This document shows, in pieces, positions 1,477-19,023 of a stretch of 20,064 nucleotides of DNA (the stretch's first letter is position 1; every line of letters starts with the position of its first letter). A model generated the notes under the pieces. That model worked only from the letters and a program-made list of their open reading frames with translations, had not been told where the DNA came from and did no database searches. The DNA comes from a virus, in the IMG/VR virus record IMGVR_UViG_3300042568_001657, positions 1-20,064 of that record; one strand, written 5' to 3'. A program made the position numbers and the translations under genes.

Positions 1477-3374
1477 TGAAAAAAAAGATACTCTTTCATT
1501 CAAATTACTCCAGAGCATTTACTGGTTTCGGTAAAAATGCCAAAAATATTCTTCGCTACTTATTTAATACTGGAAAGTATGAAATAATTGAAGCTGCGAA
1601 TGGAATGCCATTTGAGTCCGAAGAAACAGCAAGACAACCTTGGAAAAGTTATGGAACCTATCCACCACAGCAAAAACTGGAACAATTAAAAGCTCAAGAT
1701 CCAAATATTGAAAGAAGTTTGGGCTATGGAGCTGGAATGATTGACGATTTAATTAAATTAGTTAAACCAGATATTTATGTTGGCACGGAAGATATTTGGG
1801 GATTCAATGGATATTGGGATAAGCCTTGGTGGAGCAAAATCAATTCAGTTATTTGGACAACTTTAGACAGTTTGCCAATTTTGCCAGACGCAGTTAATGC
1901 TGCTCCAAAAATTAAAAATTATTATGTGTGGGCTACTTTTGCAGAAAAAGCATTAAGGGTATTGGGTTACAATCACGTTAAGACCTTGCGTGGCTGTTTA
2001 GATACTTCTAAATTCTTTAAATTAGAAGATGAGGAGAGATCTAAACTTAGAAAAAGTTTTGGGTTAGATGATTCTTTTTTGATTGGATTTGTATTCAGAA
2101 ATCAACTAAGAAAATCAGTGCCTAATTTATTGGAGGGCTTTTCAATATTTAGATTCAATAATCCTCAAGCAAATGCAAAACTATTACTTCACACCCACTG
2201 GTCTGAAGGTTGGGATATTCCAAGATTATTAAGAGAAAAAAATATTCCTTCAGATCTAGTTTATACGACTTATTTTTGTCACGCTTGCAACAATTATGAA
2301 GTCAAGCCATTTACAAGACAAAATATAGGATGTAAGTTTTGTGGAAATCCCAACAGCCAAGTAACCACAAATGTAACAGCTGGCGTTTCAGATAGACAGC
2401 TGAATGAAATTTATAATTTAATGGATGTATATTGTCATCCATTTACTAGTGGTGGGCAAGAAATTCCCATTCAGGAGGCAAAACTTGCCGAATTAATTAC
2501 CTTGGTCACTAATTATTCTTGCGGCGAAGACAGCTGCACTACTGAAAGTGGAGGCATGCCTCTAGATTGGAAAGAGTATAGAGAGCCTGGAACTCAATTT
2601 ATCAAAGCTTCAACTTGTCCACAAAGTATTAATCAAAGACTTGCAGAAGTTTTTTTCATGCATCCAAGCAAAAAACTTAGAATTGGTCAAGCTGCCCGAA
2701 AATGGACAATAGATAATTTTTCTATAGAAGTAATTGGTAAAAAACTGGAGGAAATATTCGATTCGTTTCCAGAAATTGATTATGACTTTTCGTTTGAGGA
2801 GGAAAAGCCTAATCCAACATATGCATTTCCTGAAATTGAAAGCAATGAAGACTTCATTATAGATCTTTATGCAAATATTTTAAAAGAAAAAATAGATAAA
2901 AATAATGCAAGTTGTCTTGAATGGATGAATCAATTAAAGTTTGGAGTTTCGAGAAAACAAATTTATGATCATTTAATCAATCAAGCCAATCAAAAATTAA
3001 ACAAACCAAAACAAATTAATTTTGAAGATCTTTTAGACAAGGATGACGAAGGAAAGCGATTGGCAGTTGTAATTCCACAATCTGGTGGAGATGTTCTGAT
3101 GGTTAATTCATTGCTTAAAAATTTAAAATGTTTATATCCAGAGTATAATATTTATATTTTTACCGAACCTAAGTTTTTTGATTTGATTAGAGATAATCCA
3201 GTAGTGCATAAAGTTTTACCATATAATCCAATTTGTGATAATTTACTATTCTTGGAAGGTCAAGGTGCGCACAAAGGATTTTTTGAATTAGCATTTTTAC
3301 CGCATGCTACAACTCAAAAGTTTTTCGCTTACCAACATAACGGAAAAGATAAAATTCAATTTTCATTAGTATAA
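1476..3374 (+). CDS. Multidomain glycosyltransferase: GT4-type domain, DUF4214-like linker, N-terminal half of a GT9 domain
   Basis: Residues 1-430 look like a GT-B, GT4-type glycosyltransferase: N-terminal MKKKILFHSNYSRAFTGFG, a strand FLIGFVFRNQLRKSVPNLLEG (about 201-221), and the nucleotide-sugar binding region SGGQEIPIQEAKLAEL (325-340) with the paired Glu329 and Glu334. A zinc-knuckle-like insert has Cys268, Cys271, Cys286 and Cys289 (CHAC ... CKFC). Residues about 458-505 (DLYANILKEKI ... GVSRKQIYDHL) resemble the DUF4214 repeat. Residues 528-615 (AVVIPQSGGDVLMVNSLLKN) are the N-terminal Rossmann half of a GT9/heptosyltransferase-like domain, cut off by the stop at 3372-3374; its other half is encoded by the next gene. 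The likely role is to glycosylate a virion protein, host surface glycan or modified DNA; the acceptor is unknown. The start overlaps the preceding stop (TAATG). Confidence 0.88.
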   Translation: MKKKILFHSNYSRAFTGFGKNAKNILRYLFNTGKYEIIEAANGMPFESEETARQPWKSYGTYPPQQKLEQLKAQDPNIERSLGYGAGMIDDLIKLVKPDIYVGTEDIWGFNGYWDKPWWSKINSVIWTTLDSLPILPDAVNAAPKIKNYYVWATFAEKALRVLGYNHVKTLRGCLDTSKFFKLEDEERSKLRKSFGLDDSFLIGFVFRNQLRKSVPNLLEGFSIFRFNNPQANAKLLLHTHWSEGWDIPRLLREKNIPSDLVYTTYFCHACNNYEVKPFTRQNIGCKFCGNPNSQVTTNVTAGVSDRQLNEIYNLMDVYCHPFTSGGQEIPIQEAKLAELITLVTNYSCGEDSCTTESGGMPLDWKEYREPGTQFIKASTCPQSINQRLAEVFFMHPSKKLRIGQAARKWTIDNFSIEVIGKKLEEIFDSFPEIDYDFSFEEEKPNPTYAFPEIESNEDFIIDLYANILKEKIDKNNASCLEWMNQLKFGVSRKQIYDHLINQANQKLNKPKQINFEDLLDKDDEGKRLAVVIPQSGGDVLMVNSLLKNLKCLYPEYNIYIFTEPKFFDLIRDNPVVHKVLPYNPICDNLLFLEGQGAHKGFFELAFLPHATTQKFFAYQHNGKDKIQFSLV

Positions 3375-3375
3375 T

Positions 3376-4611
3376 ATGTCACATCTTATAGAAGAATACG
3401 CAAAAACACTTGGCGTAAAAATTGGAAAACCATATCTCTGTGAGCATTTTTATCCATCGCTTGATGAGAAATATATAACAATTCATACGGACAAAAAAAT
3501 TGATTCAAAAAACTATGAATATTTTTCTCAAGTTTTAAATCTTATAAAACCTTTTTTAAATAAAGAAGGATATAAAATTTATCAAATTGGAGGGGCCGAA
3601 GACCCACGCTTAGAAAATGTCGATGCTTGGTTTTTAAATTTAAATTTTAAACAGTCGGCATATTTAATCAAAAGATCGAAATTACATCTTGGGATTGATA
3701 GTTTGCCGATTCACATAGCTAGTATGTATGACGTACCAATCGTTGCGCTATACTCGCATACTTACGCAGCAAACGCTTACCCATATTGGTCGTCAAAAGA
3801 AAATGTTATTACAATCGAATCTGACAAGAATGGAAACAAGCCATCATTCTCTTATCAAGAAAGTCCAAAAACAATTAGGTCAATTAAGCCAGAAAAAATT
3901 GCTCAATCAGTTTTTGATTTATTAAAAATTGAAGAAAAAATTAACTTTACTACTTTAAGAATAGGCGACCATTATCATATTCCACTAGTAGAGATTGTTC
4001 CTAATTTTCGAGGAAATTTAGAAGATCAAAAAAATAAAACTTTATACATAAGAGCTGATCTGCATAATGATGATCAAATAATTGCATTTTGGTGCGCAAA
4101 TTATAAAACAAAAATTATTGCAGCAAGTGAAATTCCAATTCCATTAATTAAACAATTTGCTTCAAATATAGAACATATCTATTTCAAAATCAAAGACCAA
4201 TCCATCAGCAATGAATATTTTGATTTAGTTAAAAAATGCAAAGTAAATTTTACTCTCTGCATAGATGACAAAGAAAATATTGCTCAAATAAGAAATCATT
4301 ATTTTGATTTTAGAGTAGAATTTGATAACGTGAAACAACGAATTGAAAAAATCACAAAACAAAATGGTTATTTTTTAACAAATAAAATCCTTATTTCTGA
4401 AGGAAAATTGTACCCAAGTGAAGCTCATTTAAACGCAAACAAAAAACTTGACATGCTTAACGAAGTAATGCATGATGATGATGCATTTTGGAAAGATGCA
4501 GAACACTTCTATATTTATGACTTCATCATCAGAGAAACAATCGAAAACTCAGACTCAAAACCCAAAGAATGCTCAAGAGAACTTGAGGAAAGCGAACGGA
4601 CTCCTATCTAA
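3376..4611 (+). CDS. C-terminal half of a GT9-like glycosyltransferase plus unknown C-terminal domain
   Basis: Residues 1-15 (MSHLIEEYAKTLGVK) correspond to the interdomain segment of GT9 enzymes, normally found mid-protein. Residues 33-183 form the second Rossmann domain, with the GT9 nucleotide-sugar signature HLGIDSLPIHIASMYDVP (104-121) and IVALYS. No N-terminal GT9 domain is present; it is at the end of the preceding gene, so the two products should pair, or the genes are a broken single gene. Residues 190-390 form a further domain I do not recognise (RIGDHYHIPLVEIVPNFRG at 195-213; WKDAEHFYIYDFIIRE near 372-387). The ATG lies one base after the upstream stop, in the +1 frame (TAATATG). 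An in-frame TAG just upstream (3367-3369) limits the frame, so it cannot start earlier. Confidence 0.85.
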   Translation: MSHLIEEYAKTLGVKIGKPYLCEHFYPSLDEKYITIHTDKKIDSKNYEYFSQVLNLIKPFLNKEGYKIYQIGGAEDPRLENVDAWFLNLNFKQSAYLIKRSKLHLGIDSLPIHIASMYDVPIVALYSHTYAANAYPYWSSKENVITIESDKNGNKPSFSYQESPKTIRSIKPEKIAQSVFDLLKIEEKINFTTLRIGDHYHIPLVEIVPNFRGNLEDQKNKTLYIRADLHNDDQIIAFWCANYKTKIIAASEIPIPLIKQFASNIEHIYFKIKDQSISNEYFDLVKKCKVNFTLCIDDKENIAQIRNHYFDFRVEFDNVKQRIEKITKQNGYFLTNKILISEGKLYPSEAHLNANKKLDMLNEVMHDDDAFWKDAEHFYIYDFIIRETIENSDSKPKECSRELEESERTPI

Positions 4612-5305
4612 CGTAGAATACATCTTTAATGAAGATGGCTCAATTAATTGGCGAGCCATGATTAAAGCCGAACATCTTTATCCAAATAAAGATTGGTTTG
4701 AAACTCGAAAATTAGAAACGCCGCCAACTATTGAAGGTTTAGCGGATAATCAACTATTAATTAAACTTAGTGGCTTGAAGGATCTTGCAAAAATTCGTGG
4801 ATTCAATTCTGTATCTTACGAAGTTGTTAAGTCTGAAAGAGATTATGTTGTTGTCAAATGCAAAATAAATTGGATAGGTAATTTTGAAACCAGTGGCGTT
4901 TGCATTGAATTTGAAGATATGGCTAACGCTTCATTAGAAAATACCAATGATTTTTGCGCCAAATTTCTTGAAACTATTGCTACAAATCGCGCATTTGTTC
5001 GCTGTGTTCGCAACTTCTTAAATATTCATATTGTTGGTGATGATGAGATTGACAAATCAAAAAGCAAAAATAAATTTTACGAAAATTCAGAACAAGTACA
5101 AATTGATGGAGATATTTCTCCACAAAATTTGCTTAGAAATCATGCTGTAAAAAAATTGAACATTAATAACTTTGAAGACTTTAAGCAAAAATTAAGAGAT
5201 ATGTGGATTTCGGAATCGTATCAAAATCCAGAAGCAAAGAGCTGGAATTCCTTTAAAGATATTCCAGCTAGAGAGTGTCGAAAATTAATTTCAATCATTA
5301 ATTAA
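4583..5305 (+). CDS. Possible single-strand annealing protein (Erf/Rad52-like), about 240 aa
   Basis: The reading frame is open from 4472, but that start would overlap the preceding gene by 140 bases and add a low-complexity leader. I favour TTG at 4583 (29-base overlap), which puts a compact domain at the N-terminus; ATG 4517 or 4658 are alternatives. Numbered from 4583, VEYIFNEDGSINWRAMIK (11-28) and DNQLLIKLSGLKDLAKIRGF (55-74) lead into strands YVVVKCKINWI. The stretch TIATNRAFVRCVRNFLNIHI (131-150) recalls the conserved Ala/Arg helix (A..RAIGRAL type) closing the core of Erf and DUF1071 annealing proteins. The C-terminal 60 residues look like a small helical domain. Recombination function is inference from pattern only. 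It lies directly before the GNAT-like gene, with no gap. Confidence 0.7.
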   Translation: MRKANGLLSNVEYIFNEDGSINWRAMIKAEHLYPNKDWFETRKLETPPTIEGLADNQLLIKLSGLKDLAKIRGFNSVSYEVVKSERDYVVVKCKINWIGNFETSGVCIEFEDMANASLENTNDFCAKFLETIATNRAFVRCVRNFLNIHIVGDDEIDKSKSKNKFYENSEQVQIDGDISPQNLLRNHAVKKLNINNFEDFKQKLRDMWISESYQNPEAKSWNSFKDIPARECRKLISIIN

Positions 5306-5776
5306 ATGGAAAAAGATTCTATAAAAAAAATCACCTCAGTAATTGAATTAGAAAAAGTTACTGCAGACATAAACGAATTACATCTTGAGGATAATTTGCA
5401 ATACGGTCACGCCCTTAATTTGAAGCATGATGTAGAACTAATGTTAAAATCTTTTTCTCATGAATCCATATTGATATGGAATGGTCATTTATGGGCTCAT
5501 TTTAATGGAGAAAAATGGGATGGCATCTTTGGAGGAATCATTCGCAAATCTGAAAAATTTAATAAAAAAATAATGGAAGAGTATTTGTGGCTTGCAAAAA
5601 GCTCAAACGCTGGAATGAGATTGTATAAGACTGCAGTCGATTTTGCCAAAAGCCAAAAATGTGAATTCATTTTCATGAATGTTGCTGAAAATCATCCATA
5701 TTCAGAAAAAATTAAAAAAATTTACAAAATGCTAGGCTTTATTAAAGATACTGAAACTTACGTAAAAAAACTTTAA
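5306..5776 (+). CDS. GNAT-family acetyltransferase-like protein, 156 aa
   Basis: This is the last gene of the plus cassette; its ATG directly follows the preceding stop and has no Shine-Dalgarno. The C-terminal half reads like a phage GNAT fold: a helix (GMRLYKTAVDFAKSQ, 103-117), a strand (CEFIFMNV, 119-126), then the A-x-N-H-P segment and KKIYKMLGFIKDTETYVKKL (137-156), matching the family pattern in which the acetyl-donor helix ends in Y.k.GF followed by a final strand. The usual motif A pyrophosphate loop (Q/RxxGxG/A) is degenerate (SSNAGMRL), which is common in phage members. Substrate is unknown; the neighbouring glycosyltransferases suggest a sugar or modified base as well as a protein acceptor. 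The stop codon overlaps that of the convergent gpJ gene. Confidence 0.78.
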   Translation: MEKDSIKKITSVIELEKVTADINELHLEDNLQYGHALNLKHDVELMLKSFSHESILIWNGHLWAHFNGEKWDGIFGGIIRKSEKFNKKIMEEYLWLAKSSNAGMRLYKTAVDFAKSQKCEFIFMNVAENHPYSEKIKKIYKMLGFIKDTETYVKKL

Positions 5777-8700
5777 TAATTTATTATATTGATACTTCTT
5801 TTTGTTGGAGTTGAAAATACATAAACTCCATCTTTTTCATAAAAAGCTTCAACGCTAATTGTGTAATTGCCCACTTCTTTCTCTAAAGGATTTGCAATGC
5901 CATCTCCTTGATAATTATATTCAAAATAATTATTTAATCTATCAAATGCATTGTCACCAACAATAGCTTGTAAGTTTGGAGTTTGTTTAGATGGAGATTG
6001 GACATATATCCTGTACTGCGTATAACCTTCAATATGTTCAGACGCTGGAACCCATTTAATATTTAATGTTGGAGCGTTTGAATATCTTACATAATCTATA
6101 GATTTTATGATTGGAGATTTCAGGGGTTCATTTTTCTGAGTCAATCTTGAAGCTGATTGATAATAATATAATGCATTAAATGTATTTTCAAGAGAATCAA
6201 TTCGTACATTCTCTTCTATTTCTAAAAATTTCTCTTCCTTATATTGAGTCGCAAAAATATTATATTCGTTAATATAATTTTCAGTTATTGACATTATTTT
6301 GAATGTTGGAGATGTTTTATTTAAAATTTGCAATGAATATAAAGATCCAATGCAAAAATTTCCCAAACCATTTCTAACTGAATCTTTCGTAACTCCGAAA
6401 TCGTTTGTTTTACAAAGATAAAGTTCAGTATAGACGTTTGTGGAAACGCCTTGGTCAAATCCTGACGCTTGGTTATATCCAGTAATATAATCATGTATTA
6501 AAAATAATTCTACTGAAGGTCTATCATTTTCCACTATTTTGGAATATGAAATACAATTTGCATTTTGTGGTATTATATATAAATCTAAATTTGATTCATA
6601 TCCACTTGTGCAGCATACATAGGAATAAAATCTATCTGGAGTTTCAATTTGAAAGTTTGGGAGAAAATATGGATTAGAAATTATCATCTCCTTTGAATAA
6701 GCTATATTTACATCAAATTGTGTTAAATATTTTCCCGAGAGTGCGTGATAAGGCTGAATATCACAAAAATGCGGGAAATAGTCGCAACATAAATACAAAT
6801 GTCTGCAAGTTTGCGCATTAAAAGAAATTAATTTTTCTGAAGGCCCATTTATATCTTTTACAAAATATTTAGTTTTTATTGAAAAAAATGTATTCCAACC
6901 ATTTATAAGAATATCTGTCGTTAAATTGCTTGAATATCCATTTGCACTGCTTGGATACTTAAAATTATTTAAATTTTCAGTTGTTATTAATCCAGTATAA
7001 AAATGTGCAAAAGTTCTTTGAAAATAACTGTAGTGATATTTAATTGGCGAATCTGGATCAATCTTCCACGATCCAACGTCATCATAATTCATGCTCGCAT
7101 AAAGAGGATTCCGCCTAAATTCGGGAAGTAAATTTAAGCCTGTAAAATCAATAATCATTCTTGGAGTAAAATTTTGAAATTCATCTAAATGCAAATTTTG
7201 AATTATTTTTCGACAAGTAAATCTATTATTTAATGATGACACAGTATTTTGTTGAGCAGCTATAGAAGTACATATTCCAGTATAGCTTAAAGATGAATTA
7301 CAATATTGCCTTATTTCAAGAGCCCCCACCTGTGTGTTAAGATATGATATGTAATCTATTATGCCAGTGTTATAAACTGGATAATAAGGTTTTCCTAAAT
7401 TAAAACATTGACATAAAAGCTCTCTTATTCCAGATAAGTAAGTGTTATTTAAGTTATTTTTAATAATTTTTGGAATATAAGTGAGACTTATTTGTGGCGA
7501 AAAAACGTCTAAAAAGGGTGGTAAATTAGAGTCGCTTGGATGGGGATAATTTAAAATAAAATTAACTCCAGTCATTTGAGAAAATAAATATAAATTATTG
7601 AATCCGCTATAGATTCCAGATCTTTGTTCAAAAGGTTCTTCGTGAAGAAATCTGCAACAAGAAAATCCAGTAAATGGATTTTGATCTTTATTGTATCCAG
7701 TAGGACAACAATAAATTGGCTCGCCACTAATAACTCCACTCAATTTGCTAAAACGAAAACAATTACTATTATTTAATATATCGTATATATTTGATTTTAT
7801 TTTTTCAGATTCATTATCAATCCAATCTAATTCTAAAACATCGGAGAAGCCAGTTCCAACGGAAATTAGCCAATGTCCCTTAAGTTTATTATTTATTAAT
7901 TCATTTTCAAAAAGATCGCAAAACATATCATTTTCTACATATCGCAAACTTATGGGTATGCATTCTATTACTTCAGTCATGCCATTCAAATAGTAAGAAG
8001 TTTTATTTTCACTTACGCAAAAATACATTAATGCTGGAAAAAATATTTTATGATCTTGCGGTATTTGAGAAAGTCCGCTTACTGTATATCTGCTGTAAAG
8101 ATAATTAAAAAATTCCAAATCATCATCTGATGATAAGCATGGCATTATTGCTTTTGTTGAAAAAGAATCGCTCATTATATTATAGCATGCAATAGGATTA
8201 GTTTTTGCAAAACCTATTTTTGCGCTTCCATATAATTGATTAGGTCTTGATACTATAAATCCTTTTTCTTGAGAAAAGTAATTTAAATTATGAAAATTTT
8301 CTTGCTCGCGTATTGAAAATACACTTGCCCTATATTCATCATCATTAAGTGCTATTTGTGGCTTTGTATAATCACACAATTGATGTTTTCCAGTTATGTA
8401 TACAACATTGTCGTAAGTATGATATTTAAATTTTAAAGATCCAGTAAAAAGAAAATCATTACTACGAAATAATTCAATTTTATTTCCAGAAGGATACAAA
8501 AAACAAACTTCGCTTTTTATTTTATCTCCAGTTTCTACATAAACTGGTAAACCAGAAATTCTACTTGTGTATATTTCCATGTCTGAGCATGGATATGTTA
8601 TATAAGAAAGTTTAGATAAATTACAAGCTGGATATTGACTTAATCCAGTATAATCCTGTCCGCTATTCATCAAAATAAACAAACAATCTTTACCAAAAAT

Positions 8701-11700
8701 TCTGCATGGATTAGCTATAACTTTATTATCAATTGAAGCTAAAAAAGGAGGAAATAGATAATTATTTGGAGCCGCTAAACAGCCAAATCCAACATCCGCC
8801 AATGGAATAATTGTTTCGCCCTTAATAGAAAATATAGGTTTTAGAGCATTAAGAGTTCGAGAATTATAAAATACTGAATCAAAATATTTTTCATTAGAAT
8901 TGAGATATTCAAGATAATCAATTATTCCTCGATTGGTTTCTTTTTTAGCACGATAATCCCAATTTATTGGCGCATAAGGACTTTTTATCCAAGAATATCC
9001 AAATTTGCATCCGTATATAATTTGATTTGAATTCACGCCATTTTTTATTGCAAAAGAGCGGGGCGATTCATTTCGAATTTTTTGACCAATTTCTTGCAAA
9101 TTTGGGATGAGTGATTGCAAAAAATCAATGGTAACTTTCTCATAAGATGTTCCGCCACACAAGTAATTTTGCATATCGGAATATGTTGGCTTTGTCATTG
9201 CCGAATAAAGAGTAATCGAGCCATCGTTATAAATACCAGAATTTAAAGTTTGATCAATTACAACTTTAAATAAATCACCGCTATTTGGAACTTCTTCAAT
9301 AGCCTTTACAGATCCAAAATTTTTATAAGAATTAAGCAATTCATCATGGATTGTAATTAAATCTCCAGGCTTGTATAGCAATGCTTTCATATCGGTCGTG
9401 AAAGAAACGTTGAGATTTTCTTTAGAGCTTTGATGCAAGAAATGCTTTCCAATTCTTCTCGCTTGTCCTCTAGAAGTAACGCCAAAAGCATTCATTTGTT
9501 TTTTTAGAATGCCTCGTTTTCTTATTGCGTCAGCATTTTCAACATATTCTATACTAGATCTATAGTCATTCTTTGCATCAACAAACGCAACTTCGACAAC
9601 GGTAAATTCGTCATCTTTTTTCATGTTTGCATAATTAAATAAACCGTCTTTAACATCCGCATTCGTAAATTCTCCAATTGGAGGTTTTGGTCTATCATCA
9701 TCAAAAGTAATAAGAGAATTCATGTAGTAAACATGACCTCTAAATACAGAAGCAATTTGATTAATCATGTCAAAAACATTAAATTTATCACCAATTAAAG
9801 CATTAAATGTGTGTCTTGGCTCAACTCCACCATATGAATCTGGAACTCCATAATAGTATCCATCATCATCCACACCATCACACCATCTTGCTACTTGGTA
9901 AAGTTCCCAGATATCTATCTGTTCTGGAGCAATATGATTTCCCAATCCATATCTTTTGTTTACTAACATGTCCATGAGAATCCAAGCTGGATTATCTGTC
10001 CACATTAATTTAAATGTGCCATCCCAATCTCCATCATATATTTTATGTAAACCAACCTGAGTTACATCGTATCTTATATCAGATTCATCTTTTGGATTAT
10101 TTGGGTAATAATTTGATGGAACTAAAACTTTTTTAAGTTTGCAATGAAAAGATCTACTAGGCATTTGAGCAAATGATCTTGCGTCTATTTTTGTTCCTAC
10201 TATTGCTGAGAATGGATATGAAAAAGTTTGCGGTATAATTTCAGTAACTGTTCCGACGCTAATACGTTTGGATATTAGAGGAGAAAGAGTTTCATAAGAT
10301 AATTTTGTAATTTTTACATACCTTCTAATTGGAGAGCCAGAAAGATCTAATTTAGGTGGAGGCAAAAGAATCTGTTGTCCAGCATCATTTGAGTAAATAT
10401 TTTGCGTATTTGTGGAAAAATTGGTAACTGGAATTTGGTAAAATGAAATCTCTAGAGTTTGAGTTGTCGTTGGAGTTTCCAATTTCCAAACATAACCTCC
10501 AGTTCCGCGAGCCATAGGTGGAGGTGGAGTCCAAATATAAGCATACATGTAACTTGTGTTTGTAAAAACTACTTTTGATTTTGGCGAACCTTTCGAAAAA
10601 ATAGCATCTGCAGGAATTGCATCAACTCCAAAAGTTGTCGATTTTAATAAATCTGAAACAACATCAATTATATCTTCTCCCGATTCCATTTTTCTTTCAA
10701 TAATTTTTAAATTTTTATTTGGAACATCTAACGAAGGAGTGGAAAAATTATTTTTAAATTGATATTTATGAAATATCACTCCCTGCTTATCAGTATTAGG
10801 ATAGTCTCTTTTTCCAATAACAGTGCAAACTTGATTCACTACTCCAGGTCCATAACCAAAATTATTAGATAAAGAAACAAATGAACCATATTCAGCGCCG
10901 TTAGGACTATTTTGTCTAGAGTGTGGATATGTAAGTTTTGTTACCGCGCTAAAAGAATTATTTGAATAACCAATTTGTCCATCATCTTTCAATATTAAAA
11001 AATCTTCAGGCCTGTTGTAACTACCGCCATTAATTCCAATAGTGCTAGGAAGATTTTGTAAAAATCTATTTATAGGAAGTTTATTTATTACTTCTTGATC
11101 TTGTAATTCGTTCCAATTATTTTCTTTTGAAAAACTTGAAAAAACAACAGAAACTACTGATGTGCTTGGATTATATAAAACCCAAAAATTTGCAGTTATT
11201 GAAATTGCTTGCGCTTTTATTGGAGAAGCTATTTCATTTCTTGCTACGACTGGAATCGTAAATACATTACTAGCCGCAATTTCAGATCGTAAATAATAAT
11301 CATTTGAACAAATTGGCTGACAATTTAAAGCTGAAGCTAATTGGGCAACAAATATCTCACTTGAATTTTCCGCACGAATACAATTTGCCAGTGATTTGCA
11401 ATTAATTTTGCAAATACTAGACGGATTTGTAGAATAGCAAATACAATTCATGCTCGCCTGAAAGCAGTAATTATTTACTTTAATAACCGATTGTGAGACC
11501 AAGTTGCTCCTAGCTATCCATTTTATATTTTCAAAATTTGAAACCAATGAATTTAAATCCGCAACGTTTTGATCATTCGAAATTGAAAGCAAGAAAGATT
11601 TTAAAAAACAATTATTAATAGATGGAGTAATATTTGATGCATCTTGCGTCCAATCAGTTTCAAAATATGAATTAGAAGCTGCGCCATAACCCCTCAACGA

Positions 11701-14700
11701 TATTGCTGAATCATGCGATGTATACTTTGCCCAATATGCAATTGACTTAAAATAGTCTTTGTCTACTTTTTCACAAATTGTTGTTTGAGTTCCTTTTGAA
11801 TAATAAAATGGAAGATAAGTTACAAAGTAATTAGAAGAAAATTCTTCTGTCGCTGTTTCGAAAAACATATAATTTCCCCTGTAATCATAATATTTACAAG
11901 CGTTTGCTGAATTGATAGCTGTAAAAATTTTAGACTGAAAAGTGTTCGCGTCATTTAAACTATCGGAGGGAACGTTAACACGCACGGGTCCATAAGGTTT
12001 ACAAGCGAGAACGCTTAAATTATTTTTTAATTTTTTTGTGCTTTTGCCTAGAGTTAAATTTCCAATTGTTTCAATAATTTTAATAACGTCAGCGTTTGAT
12101 TTTTTTTCATCTGGAAGATTAACTAAAACATATTTATTTAAATCTTCGTTTATATTTAATACGGCATATTTATATCCTAAATTATTCAAAGCTAATTGAG
12201 TACGGGAAATATCGCCATTAACTCTAAAAATTGAAAAGGAATAAGAAGTTTTTGGCTCTGCAACCTTATTATTGTCCGAAAATACATTATAGACATCCAC
12301 ATCGAAAGAACAAACTTGCACGCAAGTATTAGTGTATAGGTCATTAAATTTATAAGTATCTACGTTGTAGCAATTTATTGACGAATTTACCGAATAAGAG
12401 CATTCGATAAAATTATAAGGAGAAGAATAATTTGAGAAACTTAAATAATTTATTTTTTTAAGTTCTGGAATGGCTGTTGACATGTTTAACTTAAAATTGT
12501 CAAACATTGAATTTTCGAGAGCTGGTGGTATTTTTAAACCTCCATCTAACAATATTTGAGTTTCAAAATCTTGAGCAGATAAATATCCGCTAGTTTGCAA
12601 TCCAAACATTCCATTTTCATCCAAAGTGCAAACTTCGCATATGTAGCAATTTTCACTACCGCAAATTATTGCGCCAGTTAAAATTCCAGAAAAGCAAGAC
12701 TCTAAATCACCCGCAAATTCTTCTCCAGTTGGATAATAAACCCTGAAATCCCCAGTTAAATCTGCCTCTTTAGCTTCAACTAGATATGAAAATGGACTTA
12801 AACTTGCAAAACTTATACTATTATATTTTACATCTCTACTATTTGAGATATAATAGTCTGAAGCTTTTCCAGATTCAGTTACTTTAAATATATGAAATTT
12901 AACAACTGAATCAGCTTTTGAAACTGCATACACGCCAGCTCTTGGATTACCCAAGCTCCTTTGACCTCTTAAAAAATCATAACCTCGCCTTCCTATATCT
13001 ATTTTTGATGGATCGTTCGCTAATCCATAAATATCAAATTTATAAGAAAAGAAATCGCAACTACTCGAATAATTGCTATTTTCGTTAGTTTCATATCCAG
13101 TATCAATTCTGATGGATACTACTGCAGGTAATTTAGTTCCAGCAGTAATTTGCTGTTTTCTATTAAAAAGAGAATTACTTAAATTACTGCTCGATCTAGA
13201 TGGCAATGCCGTCAAATTAGTGTTAACTTCTTTAGGAGTGAGTTTATATTTAAAAACATAATCATAAATACTTGTATTTTTATATGAATTTTTTGCTAAA
13301 TATATTCCATTGCCAAAAGCAGTTCCTTCTGAACTGGTAAATACATTAAAAGCATCAGTTTCATTATAACTTAAACTAGTTTTTGCTTCTGTTAAGGTAA
13401 ACTCTTCATATGGAATAGTTAAATCTACTATTTTGGAATATCCAATTAATTTGCCATTATCAAAATTCGATAAAAACGTTTGAAAATCAACATTATTATA
13501 TAAATAATATTTTTCCAATAATGAGTTTAAATTTTCTATTGAAATTAAATTATTAACTATCAAAGATTCATTTTGCAAATAATCTAAGTTTATGCCAAAA
13601 AGAATAGATTTTGTAGGAAAAGCAAAAGTTTTATTTTTTATAGAATTTAAATTTACTTCTATTGCAAATTTTTGCAAAAATGGATATTGAGCTGGATTTA
13701 TGTTGGCGCTGGATCTAATTCCAAGTGGAAAAATTGTTGCCCAAGGAATAAATGCAGCAATATTAACTCCAACTATATATCTTTCTTGAATTTTTATTGG
13801 AGCATTAGTAAGTGCATTTTGATTTATTAATTCAGCATAAGTTAAAGTTCCTTTGTAAGGTTCTTCCGTATAACCTGGCTTTGTCCCATATCCAGCGCTA
13901 GTTAAATCTATATGATTTGTATCTGATAAGTTATTTAATGTTAAACTGACATAAACTTCCTCAACATTATTATTATCTATGTAATGGACTACAGGAATTG
14001 CAGGCTGTTCAGTTCTGTTTTGAGAAGTTTTGTCAAAAACCGCATAATTAAAATTTATATTGCTTATAATTAGCGGATTTCCCTCAGTATCATATTCAAT
14101 TGGCCAATTTTTAATATATCTAACATCGTCAGAAGTTTCATTTTCCAAATTTGTAATAACTGGAAAATTTTCCTCTACGACTGTTAAATCTGTTAATCTT
14201 GTAACTCCACCAGCATTACAAGCTTTTGCAGAAGTTACTTTTTGATTATTTTTTATTTTAAATGGTCCAATTAGCTCTTTATCATGTTGAATATCAATTT
14301 CTACATTTTTAAAATTTTGCAATGGATATTGAACTTCAGCTCCATTTTTAAATTCACTTTTAATTAAATTGTAATTATACTGTCCAGGCAGTCTTTGCCT
14401 TATGGTTATTTTATTAAAATAACGATCTATAGCTTTTGATACATCTTTAATTCCATATTTTCCATATATTCCCCATATATAAATATTTACGTTATCAAAT
14501 TTCTGTGCTGAATATCCAAGTAATGGAGAAATATTATTTTTTAATAATGCGGGTTGAGAATAACCATTATATTTAATAAAAGTTCTTGGAATTTCCGAAT
14601 ATTGATTTGAATTTAAATTTTCACTATCAACAGTAAAATATATATATTGGCCAATATTTGAAATTTCCAAATCTAACCCATGCGTTTTGTCAGTTAATCC

Positions 14701-15363
14701 AAAAAAAGATTTATCAAACTTAAAATCCGCAATTGGAACTGTAAAAGTTGGAATATTTATAATTGTTAAAAATGGACGTTCGTCATTGATTGAAATTACA
14801 TCAAACGCTCTTTCTGCTAATTTTATAGAATCTAAATTTAAATTTAAAGAATTGGCTAATTCAAACAAAGAATCTTCTGGGTGATATGAAGTTATTGAAA
14901 TTGGTCCAGAAAAAAATGGATTATTAATTAATGACGAACTTGTTGAATCTATAATCTTTTTTGAAGGAAAATTTTTATTTAAAAGCAGTGGATCTTTGTC
15001 TTCGTTTATTTGCCAAAAATCTTTCAACTCTTGCTTTAAGAAAAAAATATCAAGTTCTTCAGAATTTATTCTTGAAGTTTCTTTTACGGGAACTCCATTT
15101 AAAAATATTCCTTCAAAAATATCTTGACCATATACTTTTTTATTATCTTGATTAACTAAGCCTTCAATAGGTCCATCAGAAATCAAATCAACAATTTCTG
15201 CATATGAAAATGATGAGATGTAATTAGTTTGACCCATTAATGGTGGAGCTAATACAGCTGGATACATTTGAACTGCAACAGGTCCAGGTGGCGCTGGAGC
15301 ACCACCGCCACCACCACCAGCGCCACGAATTGTTAAGCTATTTTTTTTAAGTAAATGTTTCAT
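5773..15363 (-). CDS. J: Giant tail tip attachment protein, lambda gpJ-like, 3196 aa
   Basis: gpJ forms the tail tip hub and contacts the host receptor. A Gly/Pro-rich leader (residues 14-28) precedes the N-terminal hallmark IVDLISDGPIEGLV (57-70; gpJ has AISEGPIEG) and NGVPV. The conserved core lies at about 1680-2050: TEIIPQTFSYP, VLVPSNYYP, DGDWDGTFK (about 1778), DMLVNKRYGLG, EPRHTFNALI, AFGVTSRGQARRIGKHFL (about 1955-1975) and LYKPGDLITIHD, each paralleling lambda gpJ in order. The C-terminus (about 3085-3190) looks like a fibronectin III domain. Two huge insertions, about 110-1680 and 2060-3080, carry most of the length and nearly all the cysteines. Lambda gpJ is 1132 residues. The ATG overlaps the gpI stop (TAATG), so translation is probably coupled. 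There is no nearby terminator; the stop overlaps that of the plus cassette. Confidence 0.95.
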   Translation of the reverse strand: MKHLLKKNSLTIRGAGGGGGGAPAPPGPVAVQMYPAVLAPPLMGQTNYISSFSYAEIVDLISDGPIEGLVNQDNKKVYGQDIFEGIFLNGVPVKETSRINSEELDIFFLKQELKDFWQINEDKDPLLLNKNFPSKKIIDSTSSSLINNPFFSGPISITSYHPEDSLFELANSLNLNLDSIKLAERAFDVISINDERPFLTIINIPTFTVPIADFKFDKSFFGLTDKTHGLDLEISNIGQYIYFTVDSENLNSNQYSEIPRTFIKYNGYSQPALLKNNISPLLGYSAQKFDNVNIYIWGIYGKYGIKDVSKAIDRYFNKITIRQRLPGQYNYNLIKSEFKNGAEVQYPLQNFKNVEIDIQHDKELIGPFKIKNNQKVTSAKACNAGGVTRLTDLTVVEENFPVITNLENETSDDVRYIKNWPIEYDTEGNPLIISNINFNYAVFDKTSQNRTEQPAIPVVHYIDNNNVEEVYVSLTLNNLSDTNHIDLTSAGYGTKPGYTEEPYKGTLTYAELINQNALTNAPIKIQERYIVGVNIAAFIPWATIFPLGIRSSANINPAQYPFLQKFAIEVNLNSIKNKTFAFPTKSILFGINLDYLQNESLIVNNLISIENLNSLLEKYYLYNNVDFQTFLSNFDNGKLIGYSKIVDLTIPYEEFTLTEAKTSLSYNETDAFNVFTSSEGTAFGNGIYLAKNSYKNTSIYDYVFKYKLTPKEVNTNLTALPSRSSSNLSNSLFNRKQQITAGTKLPAVVSIRIDTGYETNENSNYSSSCDFFSYKFDIYGLANDPSKIDIGRRGYDFLRGQRSLGNPRAGVYAVSKADSVVKFHIFKVTESGKASDYYISNSRDVKYNSISFASLSPFSYLVEAKEADLTGDFRVYYPTGEEFAGDLESCFSGILTGAIICGSENCYICEVCTLDENGMFGLQTSGYLSAQDFETQILLDGGLKIPPALENSMFDNFKLNMSTAIPELKKINYLSFSNYSSPYNFIECSYSVNSSINCYNVDTYKFNDLYTNTCVQVCSFDVDVYNVFSDNNKVAEPKTSYSFSIFRVNGDISRTQLALNNLGYKYAVLNINEDLNKYVLVNLPDEKKSNADVIKIIETIGNLTLGKSTKKLKNNLSVLACKPYGPVRVNVPSDSLNDANTFQSKIFTAINSANACKYYDYRGNYMFFETATEEFSSNYFVTYLPFYYSKGTQTTICEKVDKDYFKSIAYWAKYTSHDSAISLRGYGAASNSYFETDWTQDASNITPSINNCFLKSFLLSISNDQNVADLNSLVSNFENIKWIARSNLVSQSVIKVNNYCFQASMNCICYSTNPSSICKINCKSLANCIRAENSSEIFVAQLASALNCQPICSNDYYLRSEIAASNVFTIPVVARNEIASPIKAQAISITANFWVLYNPSTSVVSVVFSSFSKENNWNELQDQEVINKLPINRFLQNLPSTIGINGGSYNRPEDFLILKDDGQIGYSNNSFSAVTKLTYPHSRQNSPNGAEYGSFVSLSNNFGYGPGVVNQVCTVIGKRDYPNTDKQGVIFHKYQFKNNFSTPSLDVPNKNLKIIERKMESGEDIIDVVSDLLKSTTFGVDAIPADAIFSKGSPKSKVVFTNTSYMYAYIWTPPPPMARGTGGYVWKLETPTTTQTLEISFYQIPVTNFSTNTQNIYSNDAGQQILLPPPKLDLSGSPIRRYVKITKLSYETLSPLISKRISVGTVTEIIPQTFSYPFSAIVGTKIDARSFAQMPSRSFHCKLKKVLVPSNYYPNNPKDESDIRYDVTQVGLHKIYDGDWDGTFKLMWTDNPAWILMDMLVNKRYGLGNHIAPEQIDIWELYQVARWCDGVDDDGYYYGVPDSYGGVEPRHTFNALIGDKFNVFDMINQIASVFRGHVYYMNSLITFDDDRPKPPIGEFTNADVKDGLFNYANMKKDDEFTVVEVAFVDAKNDYRSSIEYVENADAIRKRGILKKQMNAFGVTSRGQARRIGKHFLHQSSKENLNVSFTTDMKALLYKPGDLITIHDELLNSYKNFGSVKAIEEVPNSGDLFKVVIDQTLNSGIYNDGSITLYSAMTKPTYSDMQNYLCGGTSYEKVTIDFLQSLIPNLQEIGQKIRNESPRSFAIKNGVNSNQIIYGCKFGYSWIKSPYAPINWDYRAKKETNRGIIDYLEYLNSNEKYFDSVFYNSRTLNALKPIFSIKGETIIPLADVGFGCLAAPNNYLFPPFLASIDNKVIANPCRIFGKDCLFILMNSGQDYTGLSQYPACNLSKLSYITYPCSDMEIYTSRISGLPVYVETGDKIKSEVCFLYPSGNKIELFRSNDFLFTGSLKFKYHTYDNVVYITGKHQLCDYTKPQIALNDDEYRASVFSIREQENFHNLNYFSQEKGFIVSRPNQLYGSAKIGFAKTNPIACYNIMSDSFSTKAIMPCLSSDDDLEFFNYLYSRYTVSGLSQIPQDHKIFFPALMYFCVSENKTSYYLNGMTEVIECIPISLRYVENDMFCDLFENELINNKLKGHWLISVGTGFSDVLELDWIDNESEKIKSNIYDILNNSNCFRFSKLSGVISGEPIYCCPTGYNKDQNPFTGFSCCRFLHEEPFEQRSGIYSGFNNLYLFSQMTGVNFILNYPHPSDSNLPPFLDVFSPQISLTYIPKIIKNNLNNTYLSGIRELLCQCFNLGKPYYPVYNTGIIDYISYLNTQVGALEIRQYCNSSLSYTGICTSIAAQQNTVSSLNNRFTCRKIIQNLHLDEFQNFTPRMIIDFTGLNLLPEFRRNPLYASMNYDDVGSWKIDPDSPIKYHYSYFQRTFAHFYTGLITTENLNNFKYPSSANGYSSNLTTDILINGWNTFFSIKTKYFVKDINGPSEKLISFNAQTCRHLYLCCDYFPHFCDIQPYHALSGKYLTQFDVNIAYSKEMIISNPYFLPNFQIETPDRFYSYVCCTSGYESNLDLYIIPQNANCISYSKIVENDRPSVELFLIHDYITGYNQASGFDQGVSTNVYTELYLCKTNDFGVTKDSVRNGLGNFCIGSLYSLQILNKTSPTFKIMSITENYINEYNIFATQYKEEKFLEIEENVRIDSLENTFNALYYYQSASRLTQKNEPLKSPIIKSIDYVRYSNAPTLNIKWVPASEHIEGYTQYRIYVQSPSKQTPNLQAIVGDNAFDRLNNYFEYNYQGDGIANPLEKEVGNYTISVEAFYEKDGVYVFSTPTKRSINIINY
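6120..9190 (-). other. Second large cysteine-rich insertion in gpJ (about residues 2060-3080)
   Basis: This lies between the gpJ core and the C-terminal FN3-like domain. By eye it has more than 30 Cys in about 1000 residues, including CC pairs (IYCCPTG, FSCCRF, LYLCCDYF, YVCCTSG). The dipeptides TG and SG follow an aromatic or aliphatic residue dozens of times. Similar segments recur: GIIDYLEYLN near 2150 and GIIDYISYLN near 2670, and YTGLSQYP, VSGLSQIP and FTGLNLLP. This suggests divergent internal repeats. No known domain recognised. Confidence 0.55.
10320..15030 (-). other. First large cysteine-rich insertion in gpJ (about residues 110-1680)
   Basis: Boundaries are approximate, set by the end of the N-terminal gpJ motif and the first residues that again align with gpJ. 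It holds about two dozen Cys, several in tight clusters: CFSGILTGAIICG plus ENCYICEVC near residue 890-912, and CFQASMNCICY plus ICKINCKSLANC near 1300. Ser, Asn, Tyr and aromatic residues are frequent and the pattern suggests repeated beta domains, but I recognise no family. The conserved core that follows has only about two Cys. Confidence 0.6.
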
Positions 15364-16040
15364 TATGATATGTAGTCAGTAAATAATGAGCTTAGTTGCA
15401 TTGAGGCAAATTCCTGAACGCTATCTACGCTAGTCGGATAATTTTTTGTTGCCGCTTCGATAATTTTTGAATCACATTTAAATCGACCATAGCCAATTGA
15501 TACAGGATCTCCTTGCGAGGCAGTGTTTTCTAAACTGGAAAAAACATAACTTTTACCTCTTGACTCGACCGCAGCAGTTGCTCCTCCAACAGCTTGTGGT
15601 CCCTGACCTGGAGCGCTAACTTGATCAGCTTGAGTTTGCGTTAAATATGACACTGCCAAAGATATACCTACAGAAATCAAAGTGTTTACTGCGCCTGCTA
15701 CTATTTGCCCCATTAAAGTCAATGTGCCAGCTTTTGCACCCTCTGTTATTACTAGACCCATACCTACTGCAACAGCTTGACCAGTTCCGTAGACTATCGG
15801 AACTATATAAATAGATTTTATATTTCTTTTTTCAATTATTTTATCACTATCGTTAATAATCTCATTATCAATTATTAATTGATAATGAACACCATCCAAA
15901 GACAAATCTTTTATTTTTTTAAAAAAACCTTTTTTATTGGCATTTATTCCTTTTAACGCATCAATTCCATTCTTAATTTTTAATTCAAAAAAATTACCAA
16001 AAATTTTACCCAATATTCCAGAGATATATATTTTAGTCAT
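15363..16040 (-). CDS. I: Tail assembly protein, lambda gpI-like (copy 2), 225 aa
   Basis: gpI-type proteins are needed for tail-tip assembly with gpJ. The start is taken at ATG 16040-16038, not the longer open frame to 16124, because MTKIYISGILGKIFG aligns with the start of the preceding paralogue (MTNVVIHGILAKKFG) and creates the same 8-base overlap (ATGACTAA) with its upstream gene. The layout is a ubiquitin-like N-terminal half (1-80), a Gly/Ala-rich hydrophobic middle (about 86-134, possible membrane-interacting helices) and the conserved tail GKSYVFSSLENTASQGDPVSIGYGRFK (within 162-188), as in gpI. It lies directly before gpJ and overlaps its ATG. The upstream sequence lacks a Shine-Dalgarno, fitting coupled translation. 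Confidence 0.85.
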   Translation of the reverse strand: MTKIYISGILGKIFGNFFELKIKNGIDALKGINANKKGFFKKIKDLSLDGVHYQLIIDNEIINDSDKIIEKRNIKSIYIVPIVYGTGQAVAVGMGLVITEGAKAGTLTLMGQIVAGAVNTLISVGISLAVSYLTQTQADQVSAPGQGPQAVGGATAAVESRGKSYVFSSLENTASQGDPVSIGYGRFKCDSKIIEAATKNYPTSVDSVQEFASMQLSSLFTDYIS

Positions 16041-16713
16041 ATAAAGGCATGATATTATTCGAAATTGAAGAAGCATAATCTTCCATTGATATGTTTGTTG
16101 GATTATTTTTGATTGAAGCTCCAATAGTATTTGTTCCCGCTTTCATTTTTCCATATCCAACTCTGACAATCTGCCCTTGAGTATTAAAATTCACTTCGTT
16201 AGAAAATAAATAACTTGCACCAACACCACCAACTAATTTTGCGTTACCTCCCGTATGTTTATCTTTGGAAGCGTTTTTCATTTGCTCTGCAAGTTGCGCA
16301 TACATAGCTTGTATTTTAGCCATCGCCTCCAATTTCGTTCCATATGCTGAAGCTAAAGCTCCAACAGTAAATAGACTTGTTTGAATGAGCGCTTGCAATC
16401 CAAGACTGAGCGCTTGAAAACCTGGAATAAATATAAGAATAAATGATATAACTGAAAGTATAATGCCAAAATTTTTCCAACCGCTCGCACCAGAACCAGC
16501 TATATGCGGAATGAAATGAATTTCATTTTGATTATCTTTATTTATTACAACTTCATAACATACGTTTTTATGAAAAAGCTCACAAAGCTCTTTGCGAAAT
16601 CCACGTTTTATTGAATCTATAGCAGAAATTATAGATTTAATGTTTCCCATCCTTAATTTGATTGATTTTCCAAACTTTTTAGCTAAAATTCCATGTATAA
16701 CTACATTAGTCAT
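16033..16713 (-). CDS. I: Tail assembly protein, lambda gpI-like (copy 1), 226 aa
   Basis: A paralogue of the following gene with the same architecture and almost the same length: N-terminal MTNVVIHGILAKKFG, ending at FIPHIAG (67-73), a hydrophobic stretch (about 83-122, rich in Ile/Phe/Leu), then a Gln/Met/Ala helix, and GASYLFSNEVNFNTQGQIVRVGYGKMKAG (within 165-193), matching the gpI C-terminal pattern. It overlaps the gpK-like gene by eight bases (ATGACTAA). It is one of the few genes here with a plausible Shine-Dalgarno: AAAGGA about eight bases before the ATG. Lambda has one gpI; two in tandem suggest a duplication followed by divergence, perhaps giving a hetero-oligomeric assembly factor. 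No frameshift or inactivation is visible. Confidence 0.85.
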   Translation of the reverse strand: MTNVVIHGILAKKFGKSIKLRMGNIKSIISAIDSIKRGFRKELCELFHKNVCYEVVINKDNQNEIHFIPHIAGSGASGWKNFGIILSVISFILIFIPGFQALSLGLQALIQTSLFTVGALASAYGTKLEAMAKIQAMYAQLAEQMKNASKDKHTGGNAKLVGGVGASYLFSNEVNFNTQGQIVRVGYGKMKAGTNTIGASIKNNPTNISMEDYASSISNNIMPLYD

Positions 16714-17113
16714 TTATTAATTCCTTTAACCTTTCTATAGTGTTTACATCATAATCCTTATATTTAGGCTCATAAATATAAAAATTTTCAGTGCATATCG
16801 AATATATAATAAAAGCTAAACAACAGCTTTCAGAGGTTTTTTTGTCAAATTCTGAAGCTTTTTCGTCTCCAACTAGATGACTATGAAAAATTCCTAGTAT
16901 TTTATAATCTTTCATAAAAAGCAAATAATCATAAGGATCAATGATAAAAAATTGTTCGGGATTTTTTGATCTATTTTGCATTTGCCTATATATAATTTTA
17001 TTTTTATCATTTATTCCTATTAATGAACATAATTCCGCCACAAGACTATATTCAGACTCTTTTTTTAAAAAAGCCAATAAATCAGTTTCGCTATCAAATA
17101 AATGATCTTTCAT
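16706..17113 (-). CDS. K: JAB/MPN-domain metallopeptidase-like tail protein (gpK N-terminal type), 135 aa
   Basis: The position between gpL and gpI, and the JAMM motif, identify a gpK-like protein. The motif is complete: Glu27 in the segment VAELCSLIG, then GIFHSHLVGDEKASEFD (74-90) with zinc-ligand candidates His77, His79 and Asp90, and Ser87. Lambda gpK has a JAB domain followed by an NlpC/P60 peptidoglycan hydrolase domain; here the protein ends right after the JAB fold, and no NlpC/P60 motif is seen anywhere in the window. JAB-only versions are known among phages. It likely acts in tail-tip assembly or in processing of a tail protein. The ATG overlaps the gpL stop (TAATG), and the end overlaps the first gpI copy by eight bases. 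Confidence 0.85.
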   Translation of the reverse strand: MKDHLFDSETDLLAFLKKESEYSLVAELCSLIGINDKNKIIYRQMQNRSKNPEQFFIIDPYDYLLFMKDYKILGIFHSHLVGDEKASEFDKKTSESCCLAFIIYSICTENFYIYEPKYKDYDVNTIERLKELIND

Positions 17114-18204
17114 TATGTAAATTTAAATTTGTCTGTTCCAGGAAATCCGCCAAACGGCAATATTGAATCAACTATTACTGAATCATTATAAGAAACGTAT
17201 CCATTTCCTTTATAACTTTCTATTCCAAATCTTTTCTTGCATGCAGAAATTGTTTTTGAGCACCCATCTTTTTGCCAAAGTTGAACCGATTTATTTGGAC
17301 TATTGTAAACTGTTGATATGTGATCTTCTACGCATAAATACCAAGTTCTTGGAGGATCTTTAACTCCATTTAAATCAATATTATCTACAAAAATTATTTG
17401 ACCTTTTTGATAAGAAAAGTTTTCTTTCCATTTAAATTTTGAAATCGCCTCTAAAAGTGAAGAGCCATTTATAAAAAAACCACCCAAAGACTTTATATGT
17501 TCCGTAGGCGCTACATCAAAATCTTTATCATTTTCTTGGCAGATTAAATCTCCTTGATAATTACAACCCATTCCCCGATATTGCCAACCACAATATCTTC
17601 CATAAATGCCTCTTGTTGCAGTTTGCAAGCTCTCCAAATCAAATGGAGTTATTAACTCAAATTGAATTAGATTTTTATTTTCAGTAAGTTTTTGAGAAAT
17701 TACATATCTTTCTTTTGAAATGTATGCGTTTGGGTCTGCCGTGCCGAATGGATTCTCATTGTCCTCAAAATTTACATTATCCAAATGCTTTAAAAATAAT
17801 TTGATTCTTACAAATTTTCCATTCCTAAAGTCAGAAAAATCTCTTAATATGTTAGAAATAATTTGGTCAGAATTTGCAACAGTTACTTTTGGTCTAGGCA
17901 ATCTGCCGACCATATTAGCTTCAAAACCCTCAACTTCAATTGCTGTTGCGTAATATTTATTACCATTCCAGACAATATCTCTTTCTAAATTATTTGTTCC
18001 AGCATGAAATCTAAATGGTTCATATCCAACTTCAAAATATAATTCATAAAGCTCTATTACGGCAGACGGCTCCAAATCAATCAAAGATCTACCCAATTCT
18101 CTTCTGATTAATTCTATTTGTTCTGGCGTTCTGGGGGGAGGTGTGCCAATGTTGACATTAGCAAAATCGATAGGAGTTGGAGTTAAATTTTGAAAATCTG
18201 GCAT
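17113..18204 (-). CDS. L: Minor tail protein, lambda gpL-like, with carbohydrate-binding-module-like insert, 363 aa
   Basis: gpL is a tail-tip protein that in lambda binds an Fe-S cluster through four Cys. The core pattern is present: WNGNKYYATAIEVEGFE (79-95), RPKVTVANSD (104-113), a strand with VRIKLFLKHLDNVNF (132-146), ISKERYVIS (162-170), ELITPFDLE, then YCGWQYRGMGCNYQG (Cys205 and Cys214) and DGCSKTISACKKRFG (Cys315 and Cys322), ending in LPFGGFPG. Between the two Cys pairs, residues 259-310 hold an insert with Trp259, TWYLCVEDH and LWQ, whose spacing resembles a CBM5/12-type chitin-binding module. The first 45 residues are Pro/acidic. This is the first gene of the tail-tip operon; the candidate TATAAT lies four bases before its ATG. 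Confidence 0.92.
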   Translation of the reverse strand: MPDFQNLTPTPIDFANVNIGTPPPRTPEQIELIRRELGRSLIDLEPSAVIELYELYFEVGYEPFRFHAGTNNLERDIVWNGNKYYATAIEVEGFEANMVGRLPRPKVTVANSDQIISNILRDFSDFRNGKFVRIKLFLKHLDNVNFEDNENPFGTADPNAYISKERYVISQKLTENKNLIQFELITPFDLESLQTATRGIYGRYCGWQYRGMGCNYQGDLICQENDKDFDVAPTEHIKSLGGFFINGSSLLEAISKFKWKENFSYQKGQIIFVDNIDLNGVKDPPRTWYLCVEDHISTVYNSPNKSVQLWQKDGCSKTISACKKRFGIESYKGNGYVSYNDSVIVDSILPFGGFPGTDKFKFT

Positions 18205-18784: not shown

Positions 18785-19023
18785 AAGTAATAGGCACAAA
18801 CGGCTTATTGAAGGATCTTTTAGATAAAGAATTCAAAGCTTATTCTATTGTGGCGAACGAAGTGGGTTGCATTTTATGCCAATTAGACGATAAAAATGAG
18901 ATTTATTTCAACAAATCTCCTAAAATAGAACTTACTACTGAAGGTTTTACCATTGAAGGTCTTGCACAAATAGGTTACTCCATTGGCAACATTAAAGTGC
19001 TTTTAACAAACATAAACAAATGA
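18760..19023 (+). CDS. Small hypothetical protein, 87 aa
   Basis: A complete ORF that begins inside the end of the nuclease-like gene (25-base overlap) and overlaps the next ATG by four bases (ATGA). I recognise no family. The composition suggests an alpha/beta fold: a helical start (NGLLKDLLDKEFKAYSIV, about 14-31), a CILC pair at 37-40 (Cys37, Cys40), strands around IYFNKSPKIELTTEGFTI, and a last strand (IKVLLTNIN). No zinc-binding set is complete. Its position between a nuclease and a nucleotide enzyme suggests DNA or nucleotide metabolism, but that is only guilt by association. Confidence 0.72.
   Translation: MEQISANLKVIGTNGLLKDLLDKEFKAYSIVANEVGCILCQLDDKNEIYFNKSPKIELTTEGFTIEGLAQIGYSIGNIKVLLTNINK

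Follow-up and report, generated by a model that had tools for sequence, protein, structure and literature searches.

A lambda-type tail-tip hub with variable modules in two enlarged decoration domains from an uncultured aquatic phage lineage

Introduction

The protein analysed here is related to gpJ, the tail-tip hub and central fibre of phage lambda. Two domains decorate this hub: HDII-ins2 (also called FNIII-A, residues 72-215), which is inserted in HDII-ins1, and the OB beta-sandwich (residues 483-569), which is inserted in HDIV (PMC10721106, PMC11101478). Opening of the lambda tip involves movement of HDII-ins1, HDII-ins2, HDII and HDIII (PMC11101478), and gpI touches HDII, the HDII insertion and FNIII-A via strand addition (PMC10721106). 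In the Salmonella phage Jersey (Guernseyvirinae), the gp32 hub has no C-terminal antireceptor, and an extra HDII-ins domain was proposed to act as the antireceptor (PMC13243795). Finally, a functional disulfide network has been described in the tail and baseplate of phage Milano (PMC10811340). Here we analyse a much enlarged gpJ homologue encoded in a 20,064-nt stretch of viral DNA (IMG/VR record IMGVR_UViG_3300042568_001657), hereafter the window.

Results

Positions 5773-15363 of the minus strand are one uninterrupted reading frame that opens with ATG, has no internal stops and encodes a protein of 3196 aa (J; Table 1). An earlier note, made from the sequence alone, had described a gpJ homologue with enlargements in two places. 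This description holds: the frame is intact and the core is that of gpJ. The two gpJ-type motifs on which the note relied were both located, GPIEG at residues 64-68 and DGDWDGTFK at 1777 (given as near 1778). Residues 1696-2024 match phrog_31 'central tail fiber J' (E 1.9e-103, PHROG), and the core also matches Pfam Phage-tail_3 and, in the PDB, lambda gpJ. Alignment of the core and its flanks with lambda gpJ covers 308 columns (E 1.8e-41) and anchors J residues 1699, 2064 and 3006 at lambda residues 195, 535 and 556, respectively, with the end of J at ~699; by hhalign, the C-terminal part (3006-3196) aligns with lambda 556-699 at E 3.3e-6. Since the first anchor falls inside lambda HDII-ins2 and the next two inside OB, the N-terminal insert (residues ~110-1680) lies within HDII-ins2, as an expansion of that domain, and the C-terminal insert within OB, i.e. 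both sit in decoration domains of the hub. The conserved HDII/HDIII/HDIV core is present, as is HDII-ins1 with its GPIEG-type motif at the N-terminus (GPIEG or close variants are found in most relatives), and J is thus a lambda-type siphophage tail-tip hub that has kept its tube-closing core. Neither HDII-ins2 nor OB has the compact form seen in lambda. As judged by hhalign, J stops after FNIII-1, and the FNIII-2, helical shaft, straight fibre and RBD of lambda are missing.

Table 1. Parts of J and its neighbouring genes, with positions in the window.
Feature	Position	Strand	Evidence or remark
Acetyltransferase-like gene, convergent with J	5306..5776	+	phrog_1249, E 3e-8
J 3006-3196 with stop codon, last part of HDIV/OB plus FNIII-1	5773..6348	-	hhalign to lambda
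J 2065-3005, insert in OB decoration of HDIV	6349..9171	-	~20 residues in lambda
J 1644-2064, hub core: HDII-ins end through HDII/HDIII/HDIV to first OB strands	9172..10434	-	lambda ~193-535; PHROG, Pfam, PDB, hhalign
J 1361-1643, last part of slot D-E, weak conservation	10435..11283	-	short matches to L002, L024 and L026 slots
J 871-1360, Cys-dense module, variable content of slot D-E	11284..12753	-	21 Cys, 4.3%
J 735-870, conserved block D	12754..13161	-	in 49 loci
J 501-734, variable slot B-D	13162..13863	-	234 aa vs 461-524 in relatives; 0 Cys
J 328-500, conserved block B within HDII-ins2 expansion	13864..14382	-	in 91 fetched loci
J 1-330, scaffold block A, GPIEG (start of HDII-ins1)	14374..15363	-	38-47% identity over its length, nearest clade
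gpI-like tail assembly protein, copy 2	15363..16040	-	phrog_32, E 2.1e-24
gpI-like tail assembly protein, copy 1	16033..16713	-	phrog_32, E 3.1e-17
gpK-like, JAB-type domain only	16706..17113	-	phrog_30, E 9.4e-12; Prok-JAB, E 0.0011, below Pfam cut-off
gpL homologue	17113..18204	-	PF05100, E 6.6e-41; phrog_18, E 6.2e-59

Structure prediction agrees with the placement of the core. Modelled with AlphaFold (mean pLDDT 59.5), the J protein of a mid-size relative has the lambda tail-tip gpJ as its top PDB match (8k35, E 2.6e-40), with low-confidence stretches within the N-terminal expansion, where an Ig-like HDII-ins3 fold was looked for. The earlier note had also proposed prediction of the C-terminal insert; run on residues 1960-3110 of the window J, it modelled the flanks only, leaving the insert at pLDDT <50, and Foldseek returned weak matches for this model, lambda gpJ first.

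Upstream of J, on the same strand, the genes follow the tail gene order L-K-I-J, with a JAB-only K and a doubled I. The gpK-like protein has no NlpC/P60 part, and the listed reading frame of gpI copy 2 opens at 16124 (TTG), with the likely ATG start at 16040. Those giant-J phages for which data exist (L002, L021, L023/L024, L025, L026 and G004) share the tandem gpI pair; mid-size relatives and G005 have one gpI. Given the gpI contacts in lambda, two gpI genes in the giant-J clade would fit an enlarged contact surface but do not prove one. The gpL homologue is longer than that of lambda (363 vs 232 residues), has six cysteines and may have retained the iron-sulfur site described for gpL. The phage also carries heptosyltransferase-like (GT9) and IMP dehydrogenase/GMP reductase-like genes (3376-4611 and 19020-19994).

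We compared J with relatives from about ninety IMG/VR loci, most of them on fragmentary contigs. At ~50% core identity the J proteins have roughly 1300-1640 residues, 530-800 of them between GPIEG and the core; in the near clade (65-75%) they have 2468-2955, with 1520-2005 in the same interval. The N-terminal expansion is thus found in all near relatives and is smaller in more distant ones, and residues 1-110 are found in the ~50%-identical relatives too. In lambda gpJ and six cultured homologues the core match starts at residue 118-206 and Cys content is 0.2-1.0%, compared with ~1683 and 1.85% in the window J (the seven were checked individually; a joined query of N-terminus and core gave too weak an N-terminal match). 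The part after the core, ~1170 residues in the window J, is the longest in the sample, the other complete ones having 285-574. One 20.9-kb contig (L094; J core 51% identical) comes from a 'Lokiarchaeota' genome bin and is probably a mis-binned phage contig.

Alignment of the relatives resolves J into conserved blocks in a shared order, A (1-330), B (328-500), D (735-870), the core and F (2945-3196), separated by slots that differ. The two insertions of the earlier note are accordingly two enlarged places, of which the N-terminal one is, judging from this series, a graded trait of the whole phage family and not a single insertion, with conserved blocks inside it (1-540, 735-870 and, weakly, 1361-1643). 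The content of slot B-D (501-734) weakly resembles the second half of the relatives' slot, and slot D-E varies from 496 to 947 residues across the clade, with 0-5% Cys. Slot E-F measures 884 aa in the window J vs 189-285 in relatives. It retains landmarks of their shorter slot, SLRYVEN..GHWLI (~2472-2500) and YSKIVENDRPS (~2940-2950), and therefore seems to be the relatives' domain in enlarged form, not an insertion of foreign DNA. A high share of TGC among the Cys codons was considered as a sign of foreign origin and rejected, as ~50% TGC is found clade-wide, relatives' genes included. The earlier note had suggested searching with the inserts; for the Cys-dense pieces (871-1360 and 2065-2944), viral contigs, cultured phages, Pfam and the PDB gave no convincing relatives.

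Slot contents also differ between L002 and L003. The J proteins of L002 and L003 are 67-72% identical, and a ~280-residue block in slot D-E is present in L002 and absent from L003. In L002, residues ~1215-1390 of J hold five Asp-box-like repeats with a period of 40 (S/T-x-x-D/N-G/A-x-x-W), like beta-propeller blades; these have no match in Pfam. In the window J, internal repeats were looked for and dismissed: BLAST gave no self-match and the scores fall inside the shuffle range, and 19-residue stretches at 2143 and 2664 may echo each other, though weakly.

We next compared J with its genomic surroundings. In phages whose flanking genes are 83-98% identical to those of the window, the J cores are only 60-68% identical and the slot contents are largely unrelated. 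At the DNA level, the window and the 85.7-kb record of L002 share 85% and 91% identity in the flanks and 78% in the J core, and the inserts do not match. Likewise, the product of gene 4472-5305 is 94-96% identical in L002, L003, L004 and L027, phages with J cores at 60-68%; in trees, branches are near zero for this product vs about 0.4 for the J core, where they are ~ten-fold longer. The gpL-K-I-I-J cassette diverges as one unit and is sharply bounded, with identity dropping abruptly at ~18199, the upstream edge of gpL. At the other end, the acetyltransferase-like gene diverges with the tail cassette, whereas its neighbours beyond do not. Compared with the window, the gpL/K part of L024 is nearer than the right flank (71% vs 66% DNA identity), while L004 has the reverse pattern (69% vs 89%); these opposite patterns suggest that the cassette is exchanged between genomes. 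A single clade of the near-identical-flank phages was not rejected in an AU test on the J core (p 0.12), which leaves room for fast divergence in place beside swapping.

The earlier note had estimated about 60 cysteines in J, about two of them in the core; we counted 59 (1.85%), with two in the core (1741 and 1828), one in residues 1-768, 22 in 880-1560 and 31 in 2140-3020. The description of the inserts as Cys-rich needs to be narrowed: 52 cysteines fall in the two Cys-dense modules (871-1360 and 2065-2944), while the first ~760 residues of the N-terminal insert hold one. Relative to an expectation computed from local codon-position base composition, Cys is 1.6-fold enriched in the N-terminal piece (P 0.017) and 1.2-fold in the C-terminal insert (P 0.16, not significant), and depleted in the core (0.28 of expectation) and the N-terminal scaffold (0.14). 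Relative to the average protein of the clade (1.6-1.9% Cys), both pieces are ~two-fold enriched (P ~1.5e-4). A modest conclusion is that the Cys avoidance of the scaffold is lifted in the slot modules, and this relief accounts for much of their apparent Cys-richness. Since the same slots hold 0-5% Cys in relatives, with neither number nor place conserved, the cysteines belong to particular slot contents and are not part of a conserved mechanism. They probably stabilise the two modules after release through disulfides, as the Milano precedent would allow, or an exposed surface simply tolerates their presence.

Discussion

In our reading, to which we assign a probability of about 0.65, J is a hub of the lambda type that now presents its antireceptor on exchangeable modules within its two decoration domains, HDII-ins2 and OB. 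The tube-closing core is retained and the lambda fibre and RBD after FNIII-1 are gone; receptor recognition would have moved to the long modules inserted in HDII-ins2 and OB. A conserved scaffold (A, B, D, core and F) carries the slots, whose contents turn over by gain, loss and replacement. The gpL-K-I-I-J cassette would be exchanged, or diversify, as one unit among phages that are otherwise nearly the same. When the phage meets a cell, the slot modules would attach to its surface, and the tip could then open through shifts of HDII-ins and OB, as the hub domains shift in lambda. Because the HDII-ins domains move when the lambda tip opens, modules carried on them could relay binding directly. 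The sequences show where the inserts sit in the hub, how the slots are arranged and that divergence runs in blocks; receptor binding, the most likely function of the slot modules, is inferred, as are the trimer and the opening route. The earlier note had raised the possibility of a new receptor-binding fold marked by the cysteines. Receptor-binding modules survive as the most likely meaning of the inserts, but the cysteines mark just two of the changeable pieces. Against this reading, the Cys-dense modules gave no convincing family, PDB or contig relative and the C-terminal insert gave a low-confidence model, and tail-protein candidates encoded elsewhere in the relatives could be the receptor binders.

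A rival explanation that we consider unlikely but worth weighing is that the inserts are structural, enlarging the tip or forming a skirt that holds side fibres, and that tail proteins encoded elsewhere bind the receptor. It would account for a J without the lambda fibre and RBD and for the conservation of blocks B and D inside the expansion, and a relative's genome (G001, 1844-6012) does encode a pair of large, mutually related proteins that weakly match tail or virion families (phrog_26941) and are separate tail-protein candidates. However, conservation would be expected of a structural part, and no other part of the region varies nearly as much as the slots when phages with near-identical flanks are compared.

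Less probable still are metal-binding or disulfide-locked switches with a redox- or metal-triggering function in the Cys-dense modules. The concentration of cysteines in two modules, a CxxxxCxxCxxC motif at residues 901-912 and the functional disulfides of Milano speak for such a role. Against it, Cys number and position are not conserved in relatives and the cysteines of the C-terminal insert are not significantly above base composition. The paired spacing that the earlier note had thought worth checking did not emerge, as we saw no convincing pairing or pattern in J (smallest uncorrected P 0.02); together with the single His in 871-1360, this gives no support for a classical zinc site.

An assembly chimera or insertion artefact, which the earlier note had named as a possible refutation, is very improbable: J does come from a single contig, its C-terminal insert has a length unique in the sample and J is broken in two relatives' contigs, but independent contigs repeat both the gene order and the order of blocks in J, and the C-terminal insert runs in frame for 940 residues with the relatives' landmarks inside. 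In the two broken cases, one in-frame TAA interrupts J inside an insert (L108, G004, 10284-10294) or J is split into three reading frames inside the inserts (L112, G005, 14904-14906 and 16081-16093); these junctions were found in no other contig searched and may represent gene fission or sequence error.

Returning to the modular-hub interpretation, a more far-reaching version, which we regard as tentative, holds that the decoration domains are sites for adhesin cassettes replacing the central fibre, that the hub cassette is exchanged between genomes and that the Cys modules have undescribed folds with disulfides forming after release. Two defined hub loops emerge from the analysis as places that siphophages lacking a central fibre may use for host recognition. 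Near-identical phages differing in the cassette form a natural series in which the location of the antireceptor is testable by matching slots to hosts. Annotating gpJ via its core alone hides most of such a protein.

Compared with known systems, J shares with lambda gpJ the domain order HDII-ins1, HDII, HDIII, HDIV, OB, FNIII-1 and the gene order L-K-I-J; it differs in its giant HDII-ins2 and OB and in ending before FNIII-2, the helical shaft, the straight fibre and the RBD, and the cassette differs in its two gpI genes and JAB-only gpK. With Milano (PMC10811340) it has in common tail proteins with above-usual Cys (2.1% in Milano structural proteins); Milano, however, has a contractile sheath and baseplate with mapped inter-subunit bonds, whereas the window J is known from sequence and its cysteines are not conserved. 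The hypervariable tail tip recalls phage receptor-binding proteins diversified by DGRs, but here variation concerns whole modules, and neither the window nor the records of six relatives, which may be fragments, contain a reverse transcriptase. The Jersey gp32 hub likewise lacks a C-terminal antireceptor and has extra sequence in the HDII insertion. The additions in Jersey are an Ig-like HDII-ins3 domain and, at the N-terminus, a small domain (PMC13243795), whereas in the window family the HDII-ins2 expansion comprises 530-2000 residues and is mosaic and hypervariable, and in the window J OB is expanded as well. The most economical reading is that the window family would carry its antireceptor on decoration domains, in line with the proposal for Jersey but with far greater size and variability.
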